In this document: piece by piece, positions 3,734 through 55,859 of the stretch
How the letters are laid out: each line of letters starts with the position of its first letter
Numbering within the stretch: position 1 is the stretch's first letter
From: Sphingomonadales bacterium
GTDB taxonomy: Bacteria > Pseudomonadota > Alphaproteobacteria > Sphingomonadales > Sphingomonadaceae
DNA length: 58,744 nt
NCBI GenBank assembly: GCA_027489295.1
Contig: JAIYAA010000281.1
Coordinates: 1-58,744 of the forward strand
Direction: 5' to 3'
The notes under the pieces: generated by a model
Database searches by the model: none
Seen by the model: only the letters and a program-made list of their open reading frames with translations
What the model was told of the DNA's origin: nothing
Position numbers and translations under genes: made by a program

Positions 3734-4606
3734 TCAACCCGGTTCGTTCATGCTATCTATCTGGCGCATTTGACCCGCCAAGCCGCTCAGACGGCCTTTC
3801 AGGCGTTGATCGCCGCTCCCGGGCTGTTGGAGGGCCAACATCGTCTGACGGTGCTTCAGGCGCTGGCGATTGGGCACGACGACCTTCCCGTCGCGAACGA
3901 CGACACCCGTGATCTCCGCTGGCCGATCCACATAGTGCTTGAGCTTGTGATAGCGCAGCCCTGTCCGGTGGATCATGCGCCGCACATGCCAAACATCTGC
4001 TACGGGCACTTTCGCGCCGGAAATTGTCACGTCATCGACATAGACCGTCAGCGTGTAGCCCTTGGCCGTGCAGAACGCCGCGATCTCGGCCCACATATCG
4101 TGATAGCTATAATATGCCAGGATCGGGCTGAGGGGACTGCCCGTCGGCAAATGACCCTCGAACGTGCAGAGATCACCAAGAAGGCCGGCAACGTCGGCGC
4201 GGCATCCCATGATGCTTTGGAAGAACGCGATCACCCGCACACGGGGCGTGTTGGGGAAGAACTTCTTGATGTCGAGGCAGTGAACGACGCGGTTGCCGCG
4301 ATGGCGCGCGGCATTGCTGACGTAGCATCGCCCCTTCACCGGGCAGAACAGAAAAGATGGCGGCTCGATCCGCGCCAGCATCTTGGCGATACGGCCCTGT
4401 ACACGCTTGAGCGGCGCGACCGGATCTTCAACCGGACGTTTTCCGCCACTCTTCTTCTCAATCTCAAACTGCCGATACCGATCCGGCCCGGTCGCCATTG
4501 CCCGCAGCTCAGCTTCTGCAAGGCCGAGCACGTCAGCGAGGCGGCGCGGACTCGTGAGCTTATAGAGCTGCGACTGATTGAGCGGGATGACCGTCTTATT
4601 CGGCAT
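3734..4606 (-). CDS. Retron-type reverse transcriptase
   Basis: This 290-residue protein is a reverse transcriptase carrying both retron hallmarks. NAARH (98-102) is the NAXXH motif just before the catalytic LDIKKFF strand (D112), and ITGVVV (232-237) corresponds to the VTG motif. The active site reads YVDD (189-192) rather than the commoner YADD, and HLPTGSPLSP (152-161) is the conserved loop between them. Retron enzymes copy part of a cognate structured RNA into RNA-linked multicopy single-stranded DNA and usually act in phage defence. The start lies inside the upstream XRE gene (11-base overlap), so the two are co-translated. No fused effector domain is present. Confidence 0.9.
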   Translation of the reverse strand: MPNKTVIPLNQSQLYKLTSPRRLADVLGLAEAELRAMATGPDRYRQFEIEKKSGGKRPVEDPVAPLKRVQGRIAKMLARIEPPSFLFCPVKGRCYVSNAARHRGNRVVHCLDIKKFFPNTPRVRVIAFFQSIMGCRADVAGLLGDLCTFEGHLPTGSPLSPILAYYSYHDMWAEIAAFCTAKGYTLTVYVDDVTISGAKVPVADVWHVRRMIHRTGLRYHKLKHYVDRPAEITGVVVRDGKVVVPNRQRLKHRQTMLALQQPGSGDQRLKGRLSGLAGQMRQIDSMNEPG

Positions 4607-6611: not shown

Positions 6612-6891
6612 GTGATTATCCTTTCTGGCTGCAAATATGCCCCTCGCGCGAAGGGGATTCAAGTTTGAGGGGGCGGCACTAGGGGCGCCCCACAGGGCGC
6701 GCAGGCCGCCCCCTCCCCGGCCCTTTGGGCCGCCCACCCGGGAGCCGCACGGGGCCTACAAAGCATAGGACATCCCCATATAGGAACCGCTCAGGATACA
6801 CTCCTGGCGTATCAACCGAGGATAAACCCAGCGGGAGCCCCCACGGCCTCCCCCTCTCCCCGTGTTTTCCTATTCGCGCTGCCGCAAGGCA

Positions 6892-6911
6892 GGTGTGCCA
6901 CGTGGCACACC
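6892..6911. promoter_or_regulatory. parS-like palindrome, copy 2
   Basis: A perfect 20-base palindrome with the core TGTGCCACGTGGCACA. It lies 45 bases before leader element copy 1 in the non-coding region upstream of ardC. Confidence 0.6.
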
Positions 6912-6956
6912 CCCCATGACACGCCTGGAGCGTGGCACAGCTTGTTGGGCACGCTG

Positions 6957-7211
6957 CCCTCCCCCGGAGGCCAGACCGGTGCCGGGGAACACCAAGGGCG
7001 GCTGCCCTTTCGTTCCCGAACGACAATCAGGCCCCCCGTGTAATCCGCCAAACGCGGCCCCCGACGCCCTGCGGAGCGTCGGCCGCGCTAGGCGGCTCGC
7101 CCGCGCCAGAGGCCAGATTCTCGCCCTCCCTCCCCATCCCGTTCCTCGCCGGAAAGGCAGAGCCGGTTGCTGTTGCGACCGGCTTTCAGCCTCAAAGGAA
7201 AGGAAGACATC
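6957..7211 (+). repeat. Leader element copy 1, upstream of ardC
   Basis: About 255 non-coding bases that recur upstream of 24789 and 29268. Hairpin I (6985-7017) pairs GGGAAC with GTTCCC and AAGGGC with GCCCTT. Hairpin II (7045-7095) pairs CCGCC with GGCGG and, further in, CGACGC with GCGTCG. Hairpin III lies just before the ribosome site (AGCCGGT with ACCGGCT, about 7160-7185). The element ends at AAAGGAAAGGAAG and the ardC start. Together with upstream sequence back to 6612 it fills a 600-base gap without other supported genes. Confidence 0.75.
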
Positions 7212-8135
7212 ATGGGACGGATCACCGACAATCGAGCTGACATCTATCAGGAAATCACCGATCAGATGATCGCGATGATCGAGGCAGGCACCCGGCCGTG
7301 GTCGAAATCGTGGAATGGCAGCACCGCACCGAATATCCCGCTCCGCTCGACCGGCGTTCCCTATCGCGGCATCAACGTCCTGACCCTTTGGGTTGCCGCC
7401 ATGACCAAGGGCTATGCCTCTCCGCATTGGCTGACCTTCAAGCAGGCGCTCGCGCTTGGTGGTTGCGTCCGCAAGGGCGAGAAGGGTTCGACCGTCGTCT
7501 ACGCCAACAAGATCGAGGTTGACGCCGACAAGGGCGGAGAGAGCAGCGAGGACGGCAGGCGTCAGGTGGCGTTCCTTAAGCGCTATACCGTTTTCAATGC
7601 CGAGCAGATCGATGGCATCGAGGCGAAATATCCAACCCCCGCGCCGATCATCACCGCGACCAATCCCGACGAGCGGGACGAGGAGCTGGACGCGCTTTTC
7701 GCCCGCATCCCCGTTACCGTCAAGCATTTCGGATCGCAGCCCTATTATCAGCCGAGCGGCGATCATGTGGTGATGCCCGAGTTTGCCGACTTCCACACCA
7801 GCGATGACTATTATTCGACCCTAGCGCACGAACTTTGCCACGCGACAGGACATGTTGACCGACTTGCCCGCCCGTCTCTCATTTCCACAAAGCGCGAGGA
7901 CTATGCCCGAGAGGAATTGGTTGCTGAGCTGGGGGCGGCGTTCGTCAGCGCGACCATCGGTATCAAGCTTCACGACCGTGAAGACCACGCCGCCTATCTG
8001 GCGAGTTGGCTACAGGCCCTGCGCAATGACAAGCGGTGCATCTTCACCGCCGCCCGCCTAGCCCAAGATGCGTCCGACTGGCTCTTGAGCCGCATGGCCG
8101 TTGAGACGGCTCCCGAACTGGACGAGGCGGCATGA
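7212..8135 (+). CDS. ardC: ArdC-family antirestriction protein
   Basis: A 307-residue protein from ATG 7212, placed right after an AAGGAAAG ribosome site; a longer frame reaching upstream has none. Residues 5-130 match the ArdC N-terminal single-strand-DNA-binding domain (DIYQEITDQMIAMIEAGTRPW, then a WLTFKQA motif). The C-terminal half is a zincin-like metallopeptidase with HELCHATGH (206-214) and a downstream EELVAELGA that can supply the glutamate ligand. ArdC-type proteins protect incoming plasmid DNA from host restriction during conjugation. The gene is preceded by leader element copy 1, and its template is the predicted entering strand. Confidence 0.9.
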   Translation: MGRITDNRADIYQEITDQMIAMIEAGTRPWSKSWNGSTAPNIPLRSTGVPYRGINVLTLWVAAMTKGYASPHWLTFKQALALGGCVRKGEKGSTVVYANKIEVDADKGGESSEDGRRQVAFLKRYTVFNAEQIDGIEAKYPTPAPIITATNPDERDEELDALFARIPVTVKHFGSQPYYQPSGDHVVMPEFADFHTSDDYYSTLAHELCHATGHVDRLARPSLISTKREDYAREELVAELGAAFVSATIGIKLHDREDHAAYLASWLQALRNDKRCIFTAARLAQDASDWLLSRMAVETAPELDEAA

Positions 8136-24531: not shown

Positions 24532-24788
24532 CCCTCCCCCGGAGGCCCGCCAGCGCGGGGAACACCAAGGGCTGCTGCCCTTTCGTTCCCGAAGGAAAAT
24601 AGACGCCCCCGTGTTGTCCGCCAAGCGCGGCACCCGACGCCCTGATGGGCGTCGGCCGCGCTAGGGCGGCCTGCCCGCGCCAAGGCCATCGATTTTCCTC
24701 CTCCCTCCCCATCCCGCTCCTCGCCGGAGAGGCAGACCCGGTCGCTGCGGCAACCGGCTTTCAGCCGCAGGAAGAAGGAGAAAGGACA
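24532..24788 (+). repeat. Leader element copy 2
   Basis: A 257-base non-coding copy of the element upstream of ardC. Hairpin I spans 24558-24590 (GGGAAC with GTTCCC, AAGGGC with GCCCTT). Hairpin II spans 24618-24669 (CCGCC with GGCGG, GCGCGG with CCGCGC, CCGACGCC with GGCGTCGG). A CCGGT/ACCGG hairpin precedes the ribosome site of the gene at 24789. The sequence between merR and this gene holds nothing else that I can support. Confidence 0.75.
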
Positions 24789-24980
24789 ATGGCTTACACC
24801 CGATACAAGGGCGATCCCTACTGGAAACGGGCCAAGGTGGGCGGGACCAGTGCAGACGGCACCCCCTACGCCAAAGGCGACCGCGTGTTCTTCTATCCAC
24901 GATCCGGCGCGACCTATGCAGGCGACGCCGCGTCCCGCGCATCAGCCGAGTTCGACGAGCTGGCAAGCCTCGAAGGCTGA
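24789..24980 (+). CDS. Small conserved-looking plasmid protein
   Basis: A 63-residue protein from ATG 24789 behind GAAGGAGAAAGG: MAYTRYKGDPYWKRAKVGG followed by GDRVFFYPRSGATYAGDAA. It looks like a compact beta-fold with a basic N terminus, possibly nucleic-acid binding. No family is recognised. It is the first gene after leader copy 2 and precedes the large ParB-domain protein by 43 bases. Confidence 0.6.
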   Translation: MAYTRYKGDPYWKRAKVGGTSADGTPYAKGDRVFFYPRSGATYAGDAASRASAEFDELASLEG

Positions 24981-25023: not shown

Positions 25024-26877
25024 ATGGGTATCACCACCATCAAGCTGTCGCAGCTTCGCCTTTCCCCGCTCAATCAGCGGCGCGTGAAGCCTTCCGCCGT
25101 GGAAGCGATGGCCGACGACATTGCCGCGCACGGCCTGTTGCAGAACCTTGTCGCCTACGAGGACGAGGGCCTGTTCTATGTGTTCGCCGGAGGGCGGCGC
25201 TATCGGGGCCTCAAGGAACTGGCGAAGCGCAAGCGGATCAAGAACAGCGACACCTTCCCCGTCGAGGTCCGCACCAAGGAAGAGGCCATCGAACTGTCGC
25301 TCGCGGAGAACTTCCAGCGCGAGGACATGCACCCCGCCGACAGCATCCGCGCCTTTGCGGCACTGCGCGACACTGGCATGGACGCCGAGGAAATCGCAGC
25401 CCGGTTCGGTCAGGCAGTCAGCTTCGTCTACAAGATGCTTCGCCTTTCCGCGCTCGCACCCACGCTGATCGACCTGATCGCCAAGGACCAGTTGTCGCTT
25501 GAGGCGGCGCGCGCGCTCACCCTCACCGAGGATCACGACCAGCAGATCAAGGTCTGCAAGGCGGCGAATGGTCACGCCCACACCATCCGGCGGATGCTCA
25601 CCACGGAGAAGGTGGACACCACCAGCGGTGCGTTTCTTTTCGTCGGACGCGATGCCTATGAGGCGAAGGGCGGGACGATCACGGTGGACCTGTTCAGCCA
25701 AGGAGCGGAGGGCTTTGCCGACCAGCCCGAGCTTGTGCAGGAACTGGCCGAAGAAAAGCTGGACGGCATTGCGGATGAATATCGAGCGATCGGTTGGCAC
25801 GAGGTCCGCGCCACGCTGGAACGGCCCTATGATCTCTACATGAAGGGCAGCATCTATCCGGCCACCCGCGAGCCGACCGAGGACGAGGTGGCGCGGCTTG
25901 CCGCCATCGATGCCGAAATCGAGGCGATTGCCGAGGCCGAGGGCGAAGATAGCGACGGCATCGAGCCGCTGTCCGACGAGCGCGACACCATCACCGAAGG
26001 AATGCGGGCGTTCAATGCGGAGCAGGTCGCAGTCGGGGGCGTGGCGCTATGGGTTTCGCATGACGGTTCGCTCGGCAAGAGCTTCTATCGCGCCAAGGCC
26101 GAGGCGAAGCCCAAAGCGAGCAGCGGCGAACCCCAACCCCTCTATAGCAACAGCCTGTTCGCGGACCTGACCCGCATCAAGACGCAGATCGTGCAGGAAG
26201 CCGTCGCGGCCGACCCGGCGCTGGCGCTCGACATCATGCTGGACAGCCTTGCAGGCCAGTTGCTCCACGGCGCGCACAGCTACCAAATGGCCCTTGAGGT
26301 TCAGGCCAAGACGGTCGCGACCGATGTGGCCGACGAGCTTATGGCAACGAGCGACGTTCGTCCCGTCGAGGAAGTGATGGCGACCCGCTTCGCATCGATC
26401 CCCACCGAAGGCCGGTTCGACGCAATCCGCGCCATGACCAGCGACGACAAGATGGCATTGCTGGCGGGCCTTGTCGCCATGACCGTTGACGGCACTGTGT
26501 TCGCGGGTGGCTCCCCCGGCAGTCGGCATCACCATTTCGAGCAGATCGCGCGCGCGACCGGCGTGGACATCGCAGCCCGTTGGACCGCCCCCATCGCACT
26601 GTTCGACAAGATGCGACGAGCCGCGATGATCGACCTGTTGCGCGAGGAATGCGGTGCTTCCAGCGCCGAGAATTGCGCGACCATCAAGAAGAAGGGTGAT
26701 CTTGCCGTCAATGTGTCGGGACGGCTTCCGGGAGGGTGGCTACCTGCCCCCATGAAGATTGGCGCGTTCGATCAGCCCGAGGCCGACCCGGAGGATTTCG
26801 ACACCGACATGGACGGTGACGGGATCGAGGACGACGACATGGAGCGCGGCGAATTTGCCGACGATGAAATGGCCTGA
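25024..26877 (+). CDS. Large ParB-domain protein (not the partition ParB)
   Basis: A 617-residue protein from ATG 25024, with an AGGAG ribosome site; the longer upstream frame overlaps the preceding gene and is rejected. Residues 1-110 are a ParB N-terminal domain (LRLSPLNQRRVKPSAVEAMADDI, AGGRRYRGLKEL, ENFQREDMHPAD). A helix-turn-helix follows (AEEIAARFGQAVSFVYKMLRLSAL, about 115-140). The remaining 450 residues, with an acidic tail, have no domain I recognise. Proteins of this length on conjugative elements are thought to act in DNA binding or protection during transfer. The position behind leader copy 2 fits an early-entry function. Confidence 0.8.
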   Translation: MGITTIKLSQLRLSPLNQRRVKPSAVEAMADDIAAHGLLQNLVAYEDEGLFYVFAGGRRYRGLKELAKRKRIKNSDTFPVEVRTKEEAIELSLAENFQREDMHPADSIRAFAALRDTGMDAEEIAARFGQAVSFVYKMLRLSALAPTLIDLIAKDQLSLEAARALTLTEDHDQQIKVCKAANGHAHTIRRMLTTEKVDTTSGAFLFVGRDAYEAKGGTITVDLFSQGAEGFADQPELVQELAEEKLDGIADEYRAIGWHEVRATLERPYDLYMKGSIYPATREPTEDEVARLAAIDAEIEAIAEAEGEDSDGIEPLSDERDTITEGMRAFNAEQVAVGGVALWVSHDGSLGKSFYRAKAEAKPKASSGEPQPLYSNSLFADLTRIKTQIVQEAVAADPALALDIMLDSLAGQLLHGAHSYQMALEVQAKTVATDVADELMATSDVRPVEEVMATRFASIPTEGRFDAIRAMTSDDKMALLAGLVAMTVDGTVFAGGSPGSRHHHFEQIARATGVDIAARWTAPIALFDKMRRAAMIDLLREECGASSAENCATIKKKGDLAVNVSGRLPGGWLPAPMKIGAFDQPEADPEDFDTDMDGDGIEDDDMERGEFADDEMA

Positions 26878-29009: not shown

Positions 29010-29267
29010 CGCGCCGTCCTCGCCGCCCGCGCATCGCGCGATCGGCGCGAGGGAACACCAAGGGCGCCGCCCTTTCGTTCCCGAACGACAATCGACCGCC
29101 CGTGTAATCCGCCAAGCACGGCACCCGGCGCAAAGCGCCGACCGCACTAGGGCGGCTCGCCCGCGCCAGCAGTAGATTCTCGCTCCCCCTCCCCATCCCG
29201 TCCTCGCCGGACAGGCAGGGCCGTGAGGCCGAGCGGCCTTGCGGCCCATGCAGCAGGAGGATCAGTT
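29010..29267 (+). repeat. Leader element copy 3
   Basis: A third non-coding copy, about 258 bases, in front of the DUF3768 gene. Hairpin I is at 29051-29082 (same pairs as copies 1 and 2). Hairpin II is at 29109-29155, where the inner stem is CGGCGC with GCGCCG in place of CGACGC with GCGTCG, a compensatory change. Hairpin III is GGGCCG/CGGCCC with a nested AGGCCG/CGGCCT, just before the AGGAGG ribosome site; its sequence differs from the other copies but the structure is kept. Confidence 0.75.
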
Positions 29268-29654
29268 ATGCGCAGCCCCGAACAACTCGACACCATCCGT
29301 CGCCTGAACGATGCGGCCCGGAGCAATCCCGGCACGGCTTCCATTGCCAACGTCACGCTAGGGTTTCAGTCCCTTCCCGATGCCGACCGCTTTGCGGCAC
29401 TGGCGGCGATCGTGGGATTTTCCCGGTTCGACGGAGACAATGACCCCTATGGGGAACATGATTTCGGCGCGGTCTATCGCCTCGCGACGGGAGGGTGGAC
29501 GCAGGAGCGGCCCAAAGACGAGAAGACGATTGCCGAGACAGTGTTCTGGAAAGTGGATTACTACGATAATACGCTCACCTATGGCAGCGAAGTGCCGTGG
29601 GATGAGCACCAGACCAAGCGTGTGCTGACCATCATGTTAGCCAACGAATACTGA
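29268..29654 (+). CDS. DUF3768-family protein
   Basis: A 128-residue protein from ATG 29268, behind AGGAGG. The segment FSRFDGDNDPYGEHDFGAVYRL is the hallmark of DUF3768, a small family frequent on alphaproteobacterial plasmids and of unknown function. It is the first gene after leader copy 3 and stands alone, with a hairpin 16 bases past its stop. Confidence 0.85.
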   Translation: MRSPEQLDTIRRLNDAARSNPGTASIANVTLGFQSLPDADRFAALAAIVGFSRFDGDNDPYGEHDFGAVYRLATGGWTQERPKDEKTIAETVFWKVDYYDNTLTYGSEVPWDEHQTKRVLTIMLANEY

Positions 29655-51127: not shown

Positions 51128-51438
51128 CTCATTTCCAAAGCTGCCTGCCATCTCAATTCGGCTCGGTGGTTGCGGCTTGAACGACCTTCCTCTTGTCGCG
51201 TCGGCATTCCTGTTGGGCGCGAAGTCGATGCCGCGCGATTGTGATTGCCGTCCTTCGATTGGCTATTCCTGTATTGATGGGAAAATGGGCGCTGGCCGCC
51301 TTGTACGATCAAGCAAAAAACCGGCTGCGCCTACGGTTTCCGCCACGCGGACCCTCCGTTTTTTAGCTGGATCGCGGCGTCTGCACTCCCCTTCAATTCC
51401 CATCAGGAATGAGCCTGATCGATCGAAAGGACAGGACC

Positions 51439-51759
51439 ATGCAGAATATCGCGGAGTTTCGGATCATCGGCCGGGTGGGCAAGATCTCTGAGCACGACAA
51501 GGTGACGAAGGTGAACGTCGCCGCCAACTACAACCGCCAGGAGAATGGCGAGTGGGTGACGGACACCCATTGGAACGAGGTGACGCTGTTCGGCAAGCTG
51601 ATCGAGCGCGGCGGCAAAGCCCAGAAGGGCGACCTGGTGCATATCACGGGCCGCGTGCGCCAAAACTCCTACGACACGGCTGAGGGCCGGCGCTACACGG
51701 TGGAGCTGATCGCCGACGGCTTTGCGGTACTCGCCAAGGGATCGGAGGATCGCGACTAA
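51439..51759 (+). CDS. ssb: Single-stranded DNA-binding protein
   Basis: A 106-residue OB-fold protein from ATG 51439 behind AAAGGACAGG. NIAEFRIIGRVGKISEHDKVTKVNVAANY and THWNEVTLFGKLIERGGKAQKGDLVHITGRVRQNSY are typical of SSB. It lacks the long acidic tail of chromosomal SSB. In the predicted transfer direction it enters early, as do the ssb genes of other conjugative plasmids. Confidence 0.9.
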   Translation: MQNIAEFRIIGRVGKISEHDKVTKVNVAANYNRQENGEWVTDTHWNEVTLFGKLIERGGKAQKGDLVHITGRVRQNSYDTAEGRRYTVELIADGFAVLAKGSEDRD

Positions 51760-54135: not shown

Positions 54136-54150
54136 GCAGGATAGGTGTTG
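54136..54150 (-). other. oriT: oriT nic region, P-type
   Basis: The minus strand reads CACCTATCCTG|CC, identical to the nic core of IncP plasmid RP4 (CACCTATCCTG|C), with the cut between 54137 and 54136. It lies 93 bases upstream of mobC and the relaxase gene. A UUCG-type hairpin (AGCC-TTCG-GGCT, 54172-54183) is close by. The T-strand would run from 54136 toward lower coordinates. Confidence 0.75.
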
Positions 54151-54228
54151 CGGCGTCTTGTGTATTACATTAGCCTTCGGGCTATGTCGATTGCGCCGCA
54201 GCCTGCATCCCCCACAAAGGACACAGCG

Positions 54229-54753
54229 ATGCTGACGGCGCGCGTCGATCGCGAGTTGCTGGCGGCGTTCGATGCAGTCGCCGAGGGGAGGGGAGGGCGG
54301 AGCGCTCTCCTCCGCACCGTCCTCCAGCAGTCATTGAAGCATGTCGCTGACGCGCCCCGGATCGCACCCAGGGCGGACAGCCCCAGCAATCGGGTCAACC
54401 TTCGTTTCACCGACGTCGAAACCGCAGTCCTCGATCATCGGGCGGCGCAACGCGGTGTCGATCGGGCAGGGTGGATCAAGGCGCTTGTCCGTCGCCATCT
54501 TGCGCTCAAGGCAGGTGTCGACGACGGGCTGCGCGACGCGGTGGCGCCGATCCGGATGCAGCTCACGCGGATCGGGCGAAATCTAAATCAGGCCATGAAG
54601 GCCGGGAACGCTGCGATGATGGCCGATAGCGGCCTGCAAATCGATCGTGAGCTGCGCAGGATCGCCGACATGCGCGAAGAGATCAACGAGCAGATCGAGG
54701 CGCTGGCGGCTGCGCTGCGCGGCGAAACCGCCTTTTGGGAGGTGGCTGACTAA
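54229..54753 (+). CDS. mobC: MobC-like relaxosome accessory protein
   Basis: A 174-residue protein from ATG 54229 behind AAAGGA; an in-frame start at 54184 lacks a ribosome site. LTARVDRELLAAFDAVAEGRGGRSALLRTVLQQSL is a ribbon-helix-helix. GWIKALVRRHLALKAG and MQLTRIGRNLNQAMKAGN are MobC-type motifs. It should bind oriT and help the relaxase melt it. The relaxase start overlaps its stop. Confidence 0.85.
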   Translation: MLTARVDRELLAAFDAVAEGRGGRSALLRTVLQQSLKHVADAPRIAPRADSPSNRVNLRFTDVETAVLDHRAAQRGVDRAGWIKALVRRHLALKAGVDDGLRDAVAPIRMQLTRIGRNLNQAMKAGNAAMMADSGLQIDRELRRIADMREEINEQIEALAAALRGETAFWEVAD

Positions 54754-55859
54754 TGTCGTTCGGGGATCGCGAGGACGAGCTGTGGGAGGCAATGAAGCCC
54801 AGCTTCAAGCCACGCCTCGTCAGCGATCCGAACATCAAATACGCCAAGCATCTGGTCAATCGGACCGGGCCTTTCGCTACAAGAGGGGCGCTAACGTCAC
54901 TTGGCCGCACTGATGTTCGGGCGACGCTTGCGCGCGTCGTGCGCCGAGCCCCGGAGGTGCTGGTCAAGGTTACGGGGCGGAAGAAGGGCGCGAAGCACCT
55001 TGCCGCGCATCTCGATTATATCGGCCGTCATGGCGACATTCCTCTTGAGACGCGCGACGGGGAACAGCTCGCGACGAAGGAGGATGCGCAGCGGATCGCG
55101 GATGAGTGGTCCGATTCCCTATACTGGCGGCAAGGGACGTCCGTTTCAGCCGTCGCGATGGTGTTTTCGATGCCGGCAGGCACGGACCCTGAAACTGTGA
55201 AGCAGGCCGTGCGCGAAACCGCCGAGCGCATGATCGGCGATAATCACGATTATCTCATGGCGCTCCATACGGACACGCCGCGACCTCACGTGCATTTGAC
55301 CGTCCAGGCCGAGGGATTGAACCGCAAGCGGTTCGACCCACGCCGCGAGGATCTGTTTCGATTTCGCGAGGCGTTTGCCGAGGCGCTGCGCAGCCGGGGC
55401 GTCGAGGCCGAGGCAACGCCTCGTTACAGCCGAGGCCAGGGGAGGGCGGGGACCAGCATGGCGCTGACACAGCTTCGCGCCCGCATACGCAGCGGCGCAT
55501 CCCGTCAGCCGACCGAAACAGATCTTCGTCAGGCCCGTGAGGCGATGCAGATCGCACTTGGCAATGCCGAGCAGCCCGCATTCGTGTCGAAGACCCGCGC
55601 GCGCTGGCAGGACACGAGGCGCCGCTATGAGGCTGCGGCCGATCGGCTCGACCGCAGCGCCGATCACGAGGATCGCAAGCTCGCCGGCGATGTCCGAACA
55701 TTCCTCCAAGAGCGGGCCAACATCGAGACGGTCCCCGATAGGATGCTACGGGATGCCGAAGCGCGGGTCATAGCGGCGCGACAGCCAGCGCGGACCGATC
55801 CTTCGCCTGAACCGGGTGTGCCACGTGGCACACCTCCACCTCCGGCAAGACGTCGCTGA
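54753..55859 (+). CDS. MobP/VirD2-type relaxase
   Basis: A 368-residue relaxase. The metal-binding histidines are in LHTDTPRPHVHLTV (about 171-184), preceded by KGAKHLAAHLDYIGRHG. The tyrosine nucleophile is probably one of the N-terminal tyrosines (Y30 or Y88); I cannot fix it. It is shorter than TraI of RP4 and has no helicase or primase domain. A parS-like palindrome near the 3' end is translated as GVPRGTP. It acts on the oriT at 54136. Confidence 0.92.
   Translation: MSFGDREDELWEAMKPSFKPRLVSDPNIKYAKHLVNRTGPFATRGALTSLGRTDVRATLARVVRRAPEVLVKVTGRKKGAKHLAAHLDYIGRHGDIPLETRDGEQLATKEDAQRIADEWSDSLYWRQGTSVSAVAMVFSMPAGTDPETVKQAVRETAERMIGDNHDYLMALHTDTPRPHVHLTVQAEGLNRKRFDPRREDLFRFREAFAEALRSRGVEAEATPRYSRGQGRAGTSMALTQLRARIRSGASRQPTETDLRQAREAMQIALGNAEQPAFVSKTRARWQDTRRRYEAAADRLDRSADHEDRKLAGDVRTFLQERANIETVPDRMLRDAEARVIAARQPARTDPSPEPGVPRGTPPPPARRR
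55815..55834. promoter_or_regulatory. parS-like palindrome, copy 6, inside the relaxase gene
   Basis: A perfect 20-base palindrome with core TGTGCCACGTGGCACA, in the last 20 codons of the relaxase gene. Confidence 0.55.

Follow-up and report, generated by a model that had tools for sequence, protein, structure and literature searches.

A folded single strand of DNA can recruit the host RNA polymerase; the sso of rolling-circle plasmids does so for priming, and does not lie before genes. In the Frpo and ssi elements of F and ColIb-P9, the strand that enters the recipient is described as folding into a stem-loop that restores −10 and −35 boxes and as serving as the template (PMC9849209, PMC11541004). 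The single-stranded DNA (ssDNA) promoters of the literature, as these two papers present it, come from enterobacterial plasmids. One large survey of ssDNA promoters, by its own description, searched for Frpo/ssi sequence or for E. coli boxes, and hence a GC-rich form would be missed. A structured repeat is also described for the Bacillus plasmid pLS20, where EGeRS1, present in five copies, sits at the ribosome site of operons for establishment, that of ardC among them. An ssDNA promoter is rejected by those who described it, since in pLS20 it is the non-template strand that enters (PMC8708921). Searches of open-access PMC articles, judged by title and the beginning of the abstract, gave no report of such an element in Alphaproteobacteria.

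Here we analyse a 58,744-nt stretch of DNA from a Sphingomonadales bacterium (contig JAIYAA010000281.1), referred to as the window, in which a structured element occurs three times. We argue that each copy is probably a promoter that acts on single-stranded plasmid DNA.

Copies in the window, relatives and neighbouring genes

The initial annotation had described three ~255-bp copies of a non-coding repeat, each ending at the ribosome site of a different gene. Both statements hold. In blastn, copy 1 matches copy 2 at 85.5% over 242 columns (E 6e-70) and copy 3 at 82.9% over 193 columns (E 1e-47), and every copy ends in a ribosome site followed by an ATG, at 7212 (ArdC), 24789 (63-aa ORF) or 29268 (DUF3768). 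No fourth copy was found in the window by covariance-model search at E up to 1. The genes upstream of the element differ from copy to copy. The copies and the genes referred to below are as follows.

6957–7211, plus strand: copy 1 of the element, upstream of ardC
24532–24788, plus strand: copy 2, upstream of the 63-aa ORF and the ParB-like gene
29010–29267, plus strand: copy 3, upstream of DUF3768
7212–8135, plus strand: ArdC-type antirestriction protein (ArdcN and MPTase-PolyVal; Pfam)
24789–24980, plus strand: 63-aa ORF, no Pfam match
25024–26877, plus strand: ParB-like protein (HTH_ParB; ParB_N below cut-off)
29268–29654, plus strand: DUF3768 protein (Pfam)
1562–2446: toprim protein (Pfam)
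51409–51759, plus strand: single-strand-binding protein (SSB) near oriT (Pfam)
54136–54143, minus strand: predicted nic TATCCTG^C, a motif-based call that makes the minus strand the transferred (T-) strand, running to lower coordinates
54145–54753, plus strand: MobC-like relaxosome protein (homology)
54753–55859, plus strand: relaxase (Pfam Relaxase; MOBP typing taken from the relative p4)

The window corresponds to most of a plasmid like p4 of Sphingobium xenophagum C1, which is MOBP by PLSDB typing, has VirB transfer genes and carries copy 1 at 100%. From left to right, the window holds toprim, thermonuclease, ArdC (copy 1) and metal-efflux genes; then the 63-aa ORF and ParB-like gene (copy 2), DUF3768 and Fic (copy 3) and further cargo; and finally SSB, ParA and ParB, followed by MobC and the relaxase, with transfer genes on the minus strand at both ends. 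In p4 an IS256 element splits the DUF3768 gene behind copy 3 (L005 18502–20321). Between the thermonuclease and ArdC modules, on the opposite strand, lies an RVT_1 reverse transcriptase gene (3734–4606, minus), possibly of a retron or a defence system; in one relative (L001) this gene adjoins an HTH regulator. The palindrome GTGTGCCACGTGGCACAC (0–1 mismatch) occurs six times in the window (3388, 6893, 24466, 27935, 54085 and 55816; expected 0.01): ~50–60 bp before copies 1 and 2, beside the predicted nic and at the relaxase end among other places. Its appearance is that of an operator to which a plasmid regulator would bind on the duplex.

Relatives were sought at increasing distance. With copy 1 as the blastn query, PLSDB returned 94 places in 41 records, all sphingomonads by name, and these similar stretches place the copies beyond chance. 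A copy from plasmid pRW412c as query returned 50 records and reached, over ~30% of its length, Acuticoccus before ArdC and Leisingera before DUF2958. Covariance model R1 found matches in 47 of 397 Sphingomonadaceae genomes. A long form sits on plasmid-like contigs, often three times per contig, and there is a short form of ~112–131 nt. Class-wide, R1 matched four of 385 genomes, three of them outside the Sphingomonadaceae, before ArdA (two) or a methylase operon, and model R2 returned the same four. A phylum-wide search matched four of 398 genomes, two of them weakly (E 0.004–0.005) and not counted as members.

A hairpin-I pattern, drawn from three alphaproteobacterial copies, gave 16 matches in 84,980 genomes, 16 of 16 in Alphaproteobacteria by record title. 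R2 recovered ten of the 16 at E < 1e-8, although for two of the ten, L065 and L072, the loci (G503 and G651) had themselves gone into building R2; L071 scored 2e-5, and L059, L061, L062, L063 and L069 are weak, broken or cut. Downstream of the 16 lie ArdA (8), an ArdC-like gene (1), a methylase operon (1), a 399-aa protein (2) and an unnameable gene or cut end (4). DUF932 was considered for the 399-aa protein behind L063 and dropped, as there was no Pfam match. The ArdA form is also carried by one IMG/VR contig; a sphingomonad-type pattern gave no match in IMG/VR. Phage records yielded one match (92.9% over 99%), in an unannotated ‘Bacteriophage sp.’ from human faeces (H92, MT835687.1) that is perhaps a plasmid filed as a phage. 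The element is real and widespread, with relatives in sphingomonads and other Alphaproteobacteria.

Two side observations concern single plasmid types. The three copies of pRW412c-type plasmids (L004, L006) are nearly identical to one another and ~70% identical to the window type, which suggests homogenisation within the plasmid. In NZ_CP063842.1 the element precedes DUF3768 at both ends (L006 4–166 and 44712–44874); these ends seem to be a terminal repeat kept from circularisation.

For gene context we used 86 places, taken from 87 model matches after leaving out L006:4-166, which is identical to L006:44712. A reference gene lies within 700 nt downstream in 77 of them. By best match, these are DUF3768 or the small ORF before it (34), ArdC (16), ParB-like/63-aa (15), ArdA (10), a methylase (1) and DUF2958 (1), and the extrapolated gene start is 45–80 nt from the element in 70 of the 77. 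At L091 the start is 365 nt away and the methylase is the second gene. Nine places had no reference-gene match; five of these were read further downstream, where the two at G235:C2 and the one at G113:C9 are followed by ORFs of 62, 295 and 113 aa, and those at G016 and G154 by none that is clear.

Short-form loci (L019–L039), found in many Sphingomonadaceae genomes, mostly hold one copy each, followed by a small ORF and DUF3768, and lie near tyrosine integrases; at L046 a cytosine-methylase/Vsr-like gene pair, named by eye, is nearby. Of 22 short-form genomes, at least 15 have a tyrosine integrase no more than 20 kb from the element, and two (G385 and G406) have a PF03432 relaxase no more than 10 kb from it. 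The chromosomal short forms look like islands, some of them perhaps moved in trans. As such a relaxase is mostly absent nearby, entry as ssDNA is less certain at these sites.

Fold, covariation and strand preference

Folding the plus strand with RNA parameters gives the hairpins of the initial annotation. The copies do contain hairpin I and, in hairpin II, the inner stem; the change from CGACGC/GCGTCG to CGGCGC/GCGCCG in copy 3 was read correctly, and hairpin III is there too, differing in sequence between copies. What did not stand is hairpin II as a unit: on the minus strand, with DNA parameters, it is only the top of a longer hairpin, whose foot in copy 1 pairs 7020 with 7124. This long stem escaped the first reading, as did the nic site, the relatives outside sphingomonads and a sigma70-like box. 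The parts of the fold are listed here.

6985–7017, minus strand: copy 1 hairpin I (GGGAACG...GTTCCC), from the DNA fold of the minus strand and covariation
7020–7124, minus strand: copy 1 long T-strand hairpin (stem A, A' and inner hairpin II), from fold, covariation and strand tests
7099–7108, minus strand: copy 1 conserved TGGCGCGGGC, facing the spacer from the template side (alignment)
7125–7141, minus strand: copy 1 G-rich T-strand tract at the foot of the hairpin, a pyrimidine tract on the plus strand (alignment); candidate start region
7156–7192, plus strand: copy 1 hairpin III, which precedes the ribosome site within the leader (fold; strand bias not clear)
24558–24590, minus strand: copy 2 hairpin I (DNA fold)
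24593–24699, minus strand: copy 2 long T-strand hairpin (DNA fold)
29051–29082, minus strand: copy 3 hairpin I (DNA fold)
29084–29184, minus strand: copy 3 long T-strand hairpin (DNA fold)

With DNA parameters, all of the 12 copies folded, which come from four plasmids, have the long stem in their minus-strand optimum. Among 80 distinct cores, the T-strand optimum has the long stem in 79 and hairpin I in 77. The stem also appears in the plus-strand optima of 78 of the 80; being an inverted repeat, it can fold on both strands, and the choice of strand therefore rests on wobbles and energy. The arms change in a compensatory way, reading in the plus sense CGACAATC/GATTCTCG in copy 1, GGAAAATA/ATCGATTTTCC in copy 2 and AGCATAATCGA/TCGATTTTGCT in pRW412c. 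T-strand arms in relatives include CCCCAATC/GATTGGGG, CCGGAAT/ATTTCCGG and GCAAAATC/TATTTTGC. In a 92-nt copy (L088 6300–6391, G382:C5) the long hairpin is without its apical part, while stem A and hairpin I remain; this copy is still upstream of a ParB-like gene. Rfam 15 gave no match at gathering score in the whole window. P26 was set aside for copy 1, where a permissive search of that copy gave 27.3 bits, under its cut-off of 36.

A lack of covariation had been put forward initially as the result that could overturn the reading; analysed by measures other than R-scape, covariation upholds the fold. When 31 relatives are aligned by MAFFT, without reference to structure, RNAalifold recovers stem A, A' and hairpin I under RNA parameters, and 12 of the 23 pairs show two-sided change, with 93.0% of cells paired. 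Slid controls of this alignment have 33–62% of cells paired, and none of 500 shuffles scored as high on any of five measures. The slid version at −1 has 13 two-sided pairs, yet only 62% of its cells are paired. Over 80 distinct rows, two-sided change is seen in 25 of 29 pairs, with 94.1% paired versus 38–52% when slid, in an alignment fitted by covariance model that hence leans towards structure. With DNA parameters, RNAalifold returns the whole fold from a 12-copy alignment, and from the 31-sequence alignment hairpin I only, the long stem being absent. One caveat here is that the sequences in all counts are related, and hence counts are not independent events.

A hairpin that is used in one strand tolerates G·T pairs there, and the same pair is A·C in the other strand. 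Scoring the two alike, we find on the T-strand 48 G·T versus 2 A·C in the 31 sequences. For the 74 of 80 distinct cores used in the strand counts (six lacked text anchors), the numbers are 127 versus 18 in the stem and 72 versus 4 in hairpin I. Folding energy favours the T-strand over its complement in 79 of 80 cores, by a mean of −4.9 kcal/mol; in the control it does so in 154 of 300 random 160-nt stretches of the window. These data show that the minus strand is the strand kept foldable. Unlike hairpin I and the long stem, hairpin III has no clear strand preference (G·T 69 versus A·C 49, a slight lean to plus), and we dropped it from the fold for this reason.

The initial annotation had left the choice between an ssDNA promoter and a shared regulatory RNA. 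A structured mRNA leader, acting as a riboregulator of the downstream gene, would account for an element that ends at the ribosome site and for hairpin III, which lies in the leader and has the slight plus lean. However, an mRNA would call for the opposite strand from the one on which hairpin I and stem A show their wobble bias, the plus-strand consensus fold is weaker than that of the T-strand, and Rfam gives the element no match at gathering score; we consider a leader of this kind extremely unlikely. The first alternative, the ssDNA promoter, is favoured in addition by the nic motif, the template strand and the covariation. The wobble and energy bias fits ssDNA or a minus-strand RNA alike and does not by itself separate them; what favours ssDNA is that the fold goes with the entering strand and with start codons downstream.

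The entering strand

The minus-strand sequence in the interval from ParB to MobC includes CACCTATCCTG^CC, with its core at 54143–54136, which we take to be an RP4-type nic sequence. Given RP4 polarity, presumably, the minus strand enters 5' first, towards ParB, ParA, SSB, DUF3768, ParB-like and ArdC, with the relaxase last. The motif bears out an earlier prediction that the entering strand is minus and serves as template of all three genes. The window copies lie ~25, 29 and 47 kb from nic, distances that speak against an ssDNA promoter.

We extended this comparison to the nine plasmids with a MobC/relaxase homologue (the window, pRW412c, G018:C3, G113:C9, G076:C12, G076:C13, G115:C4, G235:C2 and G018:C2). 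All 25 copies in the nine match the model on the strand opposite mobC coding, and each plasmid has a nic-like motif directly before mobC on the element's strand. The motif is exact in five of the nine, fits a relaxed pattern in G235:C2, and was read by eye in G018:C2 and G076:C13, each with a single base changed, and in G115:C4, with an additional base. By this motif, the element folds on the nicked strand, the template of the downstream gene, in nine of nine plasmids. G176:C4, a contig without a relaxase homologue, has four scattered nic-like motifs, of which the best-looking would point the opposite way, but is located on a coding boundary. For L049, the strand that enters may be the wrong one for the model if the order of NikA and relaxase follows an RP4-like polarity.

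These results bear on two further explanations. The element could be a leader that blocks read-through on duplex DNA, an insulator or terminator like EGeRS1, with activation after transfer by another route: in pLS20 the repeats that precede ardC and other establishment operons are described as blocking upstream transcription (PMC8708921). We regard this as very unlikely, given that the entering strand is the non-template strand for EGeRS1 and the template in nine of nine plasmids here, that termination needs a plus-strand RNA whereas hairpin I and stem A prefer minus, and that scans of 6700–7300, around copy 1, for E. coli sigma70 promoters and for terminators found none.

Alternatively, the T-strand hairpin could be a single-strand initiation site, read by a primase (DnaG or the toprim protein) that starts the second strand and leaves the gene undriven. 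Several copies per entering strand would speed conversion, the plasmid encodes both a toprim-domain protein and an SSB, the short forms have no −35, and Frpo itself is tied to both jobs, promoter and priming; the title of Masai and Arai 1997 reportedly names it for both. An initiation site leaves unexplained, however, the short and near-constant spacing to anti-restriction start codons (70 of 77 at 45–80 nt, as above), and we think it unlikely as the sole function.

Promoter boxes and comparison with known systems

In the arm of the long hairpin that would be the non-template strand, the long form carries boxes of the form CTTG(G/T/A)C or near it, a spacer of 16–17 nt and C(T/G)ATT(T/A/G). In the window these are as follows.

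7047–7052, minus strand: copy 1 −35-like TTTGGC in the hairpin arm (scan)
7024–7029, minus strand: copy 1 −10-like TGATTG in the arm near the stem base (the scan prefers CTGATT one base away)
24620–24625 and 24597–24602, minus strand: copy 2 arm, CTTGGC and CTATTT, spacer 17
29111–29116 and 29089–29094, minus strand: copy 3 arm, CTTGGC and CGATTG, spacer 16

The sigma70 consensus given for S. meliloti is CTTGAC-N17-CTATAT (PMC2873474). Of 34 distinct long-form cores, at least 27 have the end of the box 6 nt away from hairpin I, and two more have it at 7 nt. The mean score of the box is 8.35 of 12, versus 6.93 when shuffled, and it is weak per sequence, with a median of 10.5 of 60 shuffles scoring equally well. 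In 46 distinct short-form cores there is no −35 and no excess (6.87 versus 6.60 shuffled), and a single −35/−10 pair for all copies was dropped accordingly for the short form. Because the box is weak and the short form lacks a −35, RNA polymerase as the reader is something that we infer. On the plus strand of the window copies, CTAGGC/CTAGGG is separated from GATT(C/T)T by 22, 24 and 22 nt, an abnormal promoter spacing that would fit silence as a duplex.

The same box could serve as a leftward promoter on double-stranded DNA (CTTGGC-N17-CTATTT, minus), giving an antisense RNA that begins with hairpin I; the box is on the minus strand, and a minus-strand RNA would give the same wobble bias. Yet stem A pairs both flanks of the box and shows covariation, for which a double-stranded promoter would have no use, short forms have no −35, and the upstream genes differ between copies. 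The chances of such a promoter seem to us very slim indeed.

For a promoter on the incoming single strand, we envisage the following course. During conjugation the nicked minus strand would enter the recipient with its 5' end leading, and on arrival hairpin I and the long hairpin would fold. The stem of the latter would offer RNA polymerase a short duplex. The −10-like CTATT/GATT would lie immediately within the foot of this duplex, and the long form would add the CTTGGC-like −35 another 16–17 bp into the stem. Where the foot opens to single-stranded template, at a start site possibly within the G-rich tract, transcription of ardC, the ParB-like operon and DUF3768 could begin before second-strand synthesis. 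Once the plasmid is double-stranded, the hairpin would be gone and the genes presumably off. The RNA may double as a primer, as for Frpo.

A bolder proposal is that the element represents a second, separately evolved class of ssDNA promoter, on alphaproteobacterial plasmids and integrative islands, that defines a shared ‘first minute’ regulon (ArdC, ArdA, ParB-like, DUF3768, DUF2958 and methylase operons), with the short form read via a TGGNGCGG/CACGG bulge and the fork at the stem foot, not a −35. We hold this to be a serious possibility, though one that we stop just short of favouring. If an ssDNA promoter is indeed what these copies are, expression from the incoming strand extends well past enterobacterial plasmids, DUF3768, DUF2958 and the small ORFs are flagged as candidate anti-defence genes, and the wobble-strand test becomes a computational means to separate ssDNA promoters from RNA leaders.

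Several described systems resemble the element in part. EGeRS1 differs in size (420–750 bp; PMC8708921), and the element's entering strand is the template, the opposite of the pLS20 case. EGeRS2 of p576 is similar in that a shared upstream sequence marks an establishment regulon that includes ardC; it differs in being described as a strong promoter of the ordinary kind, equipped with an operator on which a plasmid regulator acts (PMC8708921).

The likeness to Frpo/ssi, as these are portrayed, lies in a non-coding repeat placed in front of the early genes (SSB, antirestriction) that the entering region carries (PMC9849209, PMC11541004). As in the elements studied here, the core of F Frpo1 is more stable on the entering strand (−58.9 versus −51.3), and so is that of Frpo2 (−62.0 versus −57.4); these are two cases in all, and a wider Frpo2 stretch is barely more stable there (−72.4 versus −71.6). 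Neither R1 nor R2 matched within F 50000–67000, the 17 kb around the leading region, and the best 5000 Frpo2 blastn records are Enterobacteriaceae by name except for one Pseudomonas and four uncultured, with no sphingomonads among them. Compared with Frpo, the element is GC-rich, has a separate hairpin I, resides in alphaproteobacterial hosts and includes short forms without a −35. With its conservation, covarying fold, strand bias, motif-assigned entering strand and position before early genes, it passes most of the computational tests expected of an ssDNA promoter, one that is probably Frpo-like in action and is of another sequence family.
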